Shown here: piece by piece, positions 12,539 to 56,809 of the stretch
Layout: every line of letters begins with the position of its first letter
Numbering within the stretch: the stretch's first letter is position 1
NCBI GenBank assembly: GCA_021083345.1
Contig: JAJGRE010000001.1
Span: 372,001 to 436,000, forward strand
Source: Calditrichales bacterium MX18-03
GTDB taxonomy: Bacteria > Bacillota > Clostridia > Lutisporales > Lutisporaceae
Direction of reading: 5' to 3'
Length of the DNA: 64,000 nucleotides
Made by a program: the position numbers and the translations under genes
Notes under the pieces: generated by a model
What the model was told of the DNA's origin: nothing
The model's input: the letters and a program-made list of their open reading frames with translations, nothing else
Databases searched by the model: none

Positions 12539-12567
12539 AGTTATAATTTAAAACCAAATCCCTAATT

Positions 12568-12773
12568 CTGGAGATAGAGGCGCACTTCTTAAAGAGTATG
12601 TTTATTCATTCCTACCCGATCAGTTAATGGCTGTCAGGGCAAGGTTGGTGGCAGACCGGATGAACAGAAAGGTAAAAGTGCCGAAGGCGAAAGCTTGCCA
12701 CAGGCTTGCGACCTGGTCCCGACGTGAACAACGGCCGGACTGTCACCGCCCCAAAGGCGGTGGAGAGCTATAC
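12568..12773 (+). ncRNA. Lysine riboswitch (L-box)
   Basis: The leader carries the conserved L-box elements in order: AGATAGAGGCGC, then AAAGAGTATG, a stem with GAAAGGTAAAAGTGCCGAAG, the GACGTGAACAACGGC segment, GGACTGTCACCG, and a closing GGAGAGCTAT whose CTAT pairs with ATAG at 12574-12577 to form P1. It precedes asd, the first gene of a five-gene lysine/diaminopimelate operon. A rho-independent terminator 60 nt downstream suggests control by premature termination when lysine binds. Confidence 0.93.
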
Positions 12774-12833
12774 ATGGATTGGTGTATTTGTTCAGCTTTG
12801 CTTTGTTTTGCTCTGGACAGATATATTCATTCA

Positions 12834-40256: not shown

Positions 40257-40431
40257 TAAAAAAGCTGGCTCACACCGCTTTTTTTCGCTATGGAACCCTA
40301 TGGTTCCCTTCGACGAATGCAAGCATTCTGAGCACCCTCCTTCAACGGCAGAGGGATTCTCCCCCTTGCATCCCCCATAGTACAGTTGTTTATACTTCCT
40401 GTACTATGAAAAGGCGGGCTTACGCCCGCCC
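40257..40431 (-). promoter_or_regulatory. Array of hairpins between the binding-protein and permease genes
   Basis: Four or five stems lie in a 215-bp gap: GGCGGGC/GCCCGCC followed by TTTTC on the minus strand (40413-40430), ATAGTACAG/CTGTACTAT (40377-40407), GAATGC/GCATTC (near 40314-40327), GGAACC/GGTTCC (40291-40306), and AAAGC/GCTTT near 40260-40280. On the minus strand the first resembles a leaky terminator after the binding-protein gene. The set probably gives more binding-protein than permease mRNA. Confidence 0.55.
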
Positions 40432-56520: not shown

Positions 56521-56747
56521 AAAACACGACACTGATGACAAATCTCTTTGTAACGGATAGTATGTATAAGCGCGTATTGTTATTCTTGTTAGACAGGTCT
56601 AGTTGCTTGGCTGGCGTCCGTACCATCCATACGCTTTTTAAATAAGCCTTCGCAAAGACCTGGGACTAACCGAATAAAGATACGACCTTATACATACCAC
56701 CGTTTTAGCAGTGGATTTGTCATCATATACTTAGCGTGTCGCATTTT
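56521..56747 (-). ncRNA. Rod-like structured element between rplS and rbgA (candidate ncRNA or MITE)
   Basis: A nearly continuous inverted repeat of about 227 bp fills the gap. Paired segments: AAAA..CGACAC (56521-56532) with GTGTCG..TTTT (56736-56747); TGATGACAAATC (56533-56544) with 56714-56725; AACGG with CCGTT; GTATGTATAAG (56560-56570) with 56687-56697; TTATTC with GAATAA; CAGGTCT (56594-56600) with 56656-56662; then TTGC/GCAA and GGCT/AGCC close an apical loop. A-C mismatches on the plus strand become G-U pairs on the minus strand, so the minus strand is the likelier RNA. No protein frame is present. Confidence 0.55.
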
Positions 56748-56786: not shown

Positions 56787-56809
56787 AAAAAGGGCTTTAC
56801 AGCCCTTTT
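56787..56809 (-). terminator. Terminator of rplS
   Basis: On the minus strand AAAAGGGCT/AGCCCTTTTT with loop GTAA lies directly after the rplS stop. Confidence 0.9.

Follow-up and report, generated by a model that had tools for sequence, protein, structure and literature searches.

The window analysed here is a stretch of clostridial DNA of 64,000 nucleotides, in which the gap between rplS and rbgA measures 318 nt and contains, between the rplS terminator and rbgA, a rod-like inverted repeat of 227 nt that directly precedes the rbgA ribosome-binding site. The rod, its helices and coordinates, the one-sided 10-nt bulge and the placement relative to the two genes are all as described in an initial annotation of this DNA. 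When both strands are folded, the plus strand reaches -83.8 kcal/mol, versus -47.2 (sd 4.3) for dinucleotide shuffles (z -8.5), and the minus strand -90.5 kcal/mol (z -9.6), the minus strand being the more stable in this copy; none of the shuffles is as stable as the real sequence. Elsewhere in the window, a lysine riboswitch is found at 12567-12778 (+; 88 bits) and a Clostridiales-2 sRNA (RF02937) at 40303-40383 (-; 76 bits).

A search of the 4.69-Mb genome showed that the rod is a dispersed repeat; once a further query and a covariance model were added, the tally stood at about ten other copies and two single-arm fragments. The copies are intergenic, lie in either orientation and stand beside many different genes, as judged from mechanically found open reading frames. 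A second near-full copy (L023) is 87% identical to the window element over 242 nt, and there are many partial matches besides. The window copy, being 13% diverged from its closest sibling, is probably old. One copy (C8:674k) has an internal deletion, and in three others (L026, L028 and L030) the apical region contains an additional inverted repeat, some 40-50 nt long. The element has no phage, plasmid or viral-contig match.

The initial annotation could not assign the rod to any known class. A comparison of the window with Rfam at gathering level gives no match at the element. In genomes of the same bacterial family, copies keep a conserved apical core, and several of them score above the cut-off of TwoAYGGAY (RF01731, clan CL00106; curated threshold 43 bits). 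A covariance model, R1, was built from eleven of these same-family relatives and zero sequences of the window's own genome; several of its source copies exceed the Rfam cut-off. It recovers eight copies in the own genome, with 42-93 bits and E values of 1e-7 to 1e-20. These copies share with TwoAYGGAY a homologous apical core, the sense strand, the two-hairpin plan and loops of the form A-N-GGA-N, although they are divergent, the best scores of RF01731 itself being 24.9 and 23.9 bits, below the curated 43. R1 gives 15 bits (E 0.27) to the window copy and 21 bits to L023, because the second apical hairpin is missing from both; comparison with full copies, among which C13:106k and C8:692k keep both AYGGAY hairpins, shows that the lost segment is bordered by short microhomology. 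Common descent of the window copy is indicated by its identity to L023, by arms common to it and the full own copies and by the R1 matches in this genome. With one AYGGAY hairpin (ACGGAC) left and the second deleted, it is a truncated derivative of TwoAYGGAY and not a full member. The sense strand of TwoAYGGAY is the minus strand of the window. The proposal of a free-standing non-coding RNA is partly right, in that the family is a known RNA class read in the minus sense; the window copy is truncated and lies below the family threshold. TwoAYGGAY was first listed by Weinberg et al. in 2010 (PMC2864571), without a function; mobility is not mentioned in the portion available of its published description.

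Table 1. Features of the palindromic element and its surroundings (R1, covariance model described in the text)
Feature	Position	Strand	Basis
Entire palindromic element	56521..56747	- (TwoAYGGAY-sense)	Folds, own-genome copies, strand assigned to copies by R1
Outer terminal inverted repeat, low-coordinate side, AAAACACGACAC	56521..56532	.	Common to L023
Outer terminal inverted repeat, high-coordinate side, GTGTCGCATTTT	56736..56747	.	Pairs with 56521-56532, two A-C mismatches
One-sided 10-nt bulge separating outer and inner arms	56726..56735	.	L023: same position, other letters
Conserved sense motif CTTTGCGAAG by apical core, opposite 56597-56609	56648..56657	-	Own copies and relatives
Remaining apical hairpin GGATGGT-ACGGAC-GCCAGC(C)	56609..56628	-	Local fold
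ACGGAC hexaloop of remaining hairpin	56616-56621	-	No variation in loop columns across nine own copies
Second AYGGAY letters, ATGGAT, in stem, outside loop	56625..56630	-	Predicted fold
Internal-deletion junction (second apical hairpin removed), CAAGC microhomology	56605..56609	-	Comparison with full copies
rplS terminator, outside element; upstream in element's sense direction	56788..56809	-	Kept in relatives
Single-arm fragments, own genome	C8:101k, C8:440k

The best view of how such elements end comes from G057, a complete 3.1-Mb genome from another family of the same class, which has 18 copies at E < 0.001. There, 11 of the 15 copies with recognisable 16-bp ends (CTGYRATTCGTAATAT) are flanked immediately by exact direct repeats of 7-11 bp; repeat length was left free in this test, and shuffling of the partners, including shuffles that returned a copy's own partner, gives a mean of 0.7 duplications. 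Other elements with matching ends, some short (50-136 bp), others longer (up to about 600 bp), are present in this genome, and five of them have duplications. Core-less deletion derivatives carry target duplications, meaning that movement is independent of the core. In a draft genome (G083), many matching ends are found no more than about 200 bp from the end of a contig, the pattern that recent repeats would produce by interrupting the assembly. In G057 the TwoAYGGAY unit sits in MITEs whose terminal repeats measure 16 bp and whose target duplications are 7-11 bp long, which is a new observation. No transposase was found between matching ends in the genus of G057. As a possible autonomous element, a repeat pair of 3.5 kb in G412 was considered and rejected: it encloses a GntR-type-like regulator and an ABC transporter ATPase-like gene, and no transposase. 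Two further structures were seen in G057, a 598-bp element (L178) with the same ends and several AYGGAY-type hairpins in a row, and a palindromic unit of about 113 bp inside one arm, in four copies (L114-L117) and both orientations, like a nested MITE. At the window copy, the terminal sequence AAAACACGACAC resembles the ends of copies in G008, its outer end not being set by a target duplication; such a duplication was sought by eye there, and among several candidate ends none was convincing. Of the dispersed copies with target duplications that would mark a MITE, the dispersal is seen in the own genome; terminal repeats with duplications are seen in G057 and not in the window's genome, none being clear at the window copy.

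The arms covary. Among own copies, compensatory double changes affect 13 of the 60 consensus pairs, and in eight genomes double Watson-Crick changes lie roughly 2-7 fold above independence, an estimate that includes alignment error and shared ancestry. If pairing were driven by the RNA, G-U should exceed A-C on the sense strand. Single mismatches in the rods of 88 copies from nine genomes amount to 57 G-U and 64 A-C; counting against the consensus in five genomes gave a similar balance. RNA-strand selection on the arms, tested in these two ways, is unsupported, and the hint of minus-strand pairing in the initial annotation fails across copies; the better fold of that strand in the window copy is not a general preference. 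From the equal counts we infer that the arms are kept paired at the DNA level, by hairpin-templated correction. Compensation in the arms yet no G-U/A-C strand bias is a new finding for these elements. In the f26 genomes some arms, by eye, run far past the core, complementary within a copy and differing between copies; the very long arms of L197-L201 (G402) behave in the same way, with a purine-rich 5' side. ERIC is a large palindromic, MITE-like bacterial repeat. The present family resembles it in being short, non-coding, intergenic, dispersed and inverted-repeat in form, with compensatory arm changes, and differs from it by its conserved CsrA-type module and, in G057, by target duplications of 7-11 bp.

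The apical loops evolve differently from the arms. In the 20 copies of G036 the loop reads A(20) N G(19) G(20) A(19) N, both N positions being 45% divergent versus a mean of 6% for the central region. In the own genome, none of the six ACGGAC columns varies across nine copies, versus a mean divergence of 20%. The closing stem of loop 2 in G008 changes from C-G to T-A in 5 of 12 copies, a clean compensation. That the loops keep A-N-GGA-N with N free, as at CsrA sites, is a further new finding. A second link is the distribution of csrA, which is present in 32 of the 34 genomes with TwoAYGGAY versus 134 of 393 overall (hypergeometric P ~2e-14 over 393 genomes of the class, ignoring phylogeny and genome size); by genus, P is ~2e-10, allowing one of 24 genera to lack csrA. 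This co-occurrence, seen in genome sequences, is new as well. csrA is present in the window's genome, next to what we take, from reading the sequence, to be fliW-like and flagellin genes. CsrA sites in TwoAYGGAY had been predicted by Gardner and Eldai (PMC4333381). When the literature was searched for CsrA combined with MITEs, the Rfam 12 paper alone matched, the two terms being unrelated there.

Three other explanations have to be weighed. The initial annotation had considered a dedicated cis-regulatory element of rbgA, and the rod is indeed co-directional with rplS and rbgA. However, the other copies adjoin many different genes with no consistent orientation, the loop and the ribosome-binding site are over 100 nt apart, and in 15 relatives with rplS and rbgA on one contig the gap is 39-139 nt long and the element is absent. 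This explanation is therefore unsupported, and we hold it to be very improbable. In two further relatives the gap (L172, 345 nt, in G021; L176, 286 nt, in G007) holds extra sequence other than the element, with an inverted repeat in G021, so that it may be insertion-prone. Absence from the same site in relatives favours a MITE, which, with the dispersed copies and the terminal repeats and duplications of G057, is the best supported of the three options originally put forward. The copies might also be ordinary sRNA genes of the CsrB/RsmX type, multiplied by duplication without transposition. Loop conservation, the csrA association and the several copies per genome would all fit; but the copies share no flanks, neither a promoter nor a terminator is enriched at the window copy, and the terminal repeats with target duplications already contradict this in G057, so that we consider it improbable. 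The sponges CsrB, CsrC, RsmX, RsmY and RsmZ are similar in their paired GGA motifs in hairpin loops, their Rfam clan and the presence of csrA in the genome, whereas they are dedicated sRNA genes and the present family consists of dispersed palindromic copies for which CsrA binding is predicted.

The most serious competitor is a purely selfish family of MITE palindromes in which a role at the DNA level, such as recognition by a transposase or a hairpin used in replication, preserves the apical loops and CsrA is uninvolved. Arms lacking an RNA strand bias, insertions in both orientations and the core-less derivatives with target duplications in G057 are what it would lead one to expect. It accounts poorly for loops in which the two N positions are free, as at CsrA sites, and for a TwoAYGGAY unit almost confined to csrA genomes; moreover, a core that is dispensable for movement must be conserved for another reason. 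We regard it as rather unlikely.

Our preferred reading is that a non-autonomous MITE-like palindrome, moved in trans by some transposase, inserted into the gap separating rplS from rbgA. The family to which it belongs bears a TwoAYGGAY unit on the apex of a long rod, namely two small hairpins with A-N-GGA-N loops that agree with the published CsrA binding rule, and sense transcripts of intact copies would bind and titrate a CsrA dimer. That the element is a dispersed, TwoAYGGAY-related mobile palindrome is, from the sequence comparisons, very probable. CsrA binding by intact members is a prediction that we find fairly probable, and the same holds for the two propositions taken jointly. No promoter stands out at the window copy and the orientation of flanking genes relative to the copies is random, so that transcription of most copies is putative. 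The window copy itself has lost one hairpin by internal deletion; with a single loop remaining it is probably a relic, weak or without function, and activity on its part is unlikely.

It is plausible that intact copies are mobile CsrA sponges. The broader idea, that TwoAYGGAY elements as a whole are mobile sponges spreading paired CsrA-binding hairpins through csrA-bearing Clostridia, with RNA-level selection keeping the loops, DNA-level hairpin correction keeping the arms paired and copy number tuning free CsrA, is tentative, and we would place it somewhat short of even. The family would link a mobile element to CsrA control and offer an example of MITEs spreading a regulatory RNA module. A TwoAYGGAY that is transposon-borne, multi-copy, tied to csrA and conserved in its loops may allow CsrA sponging in Clostridia to be tested directly.
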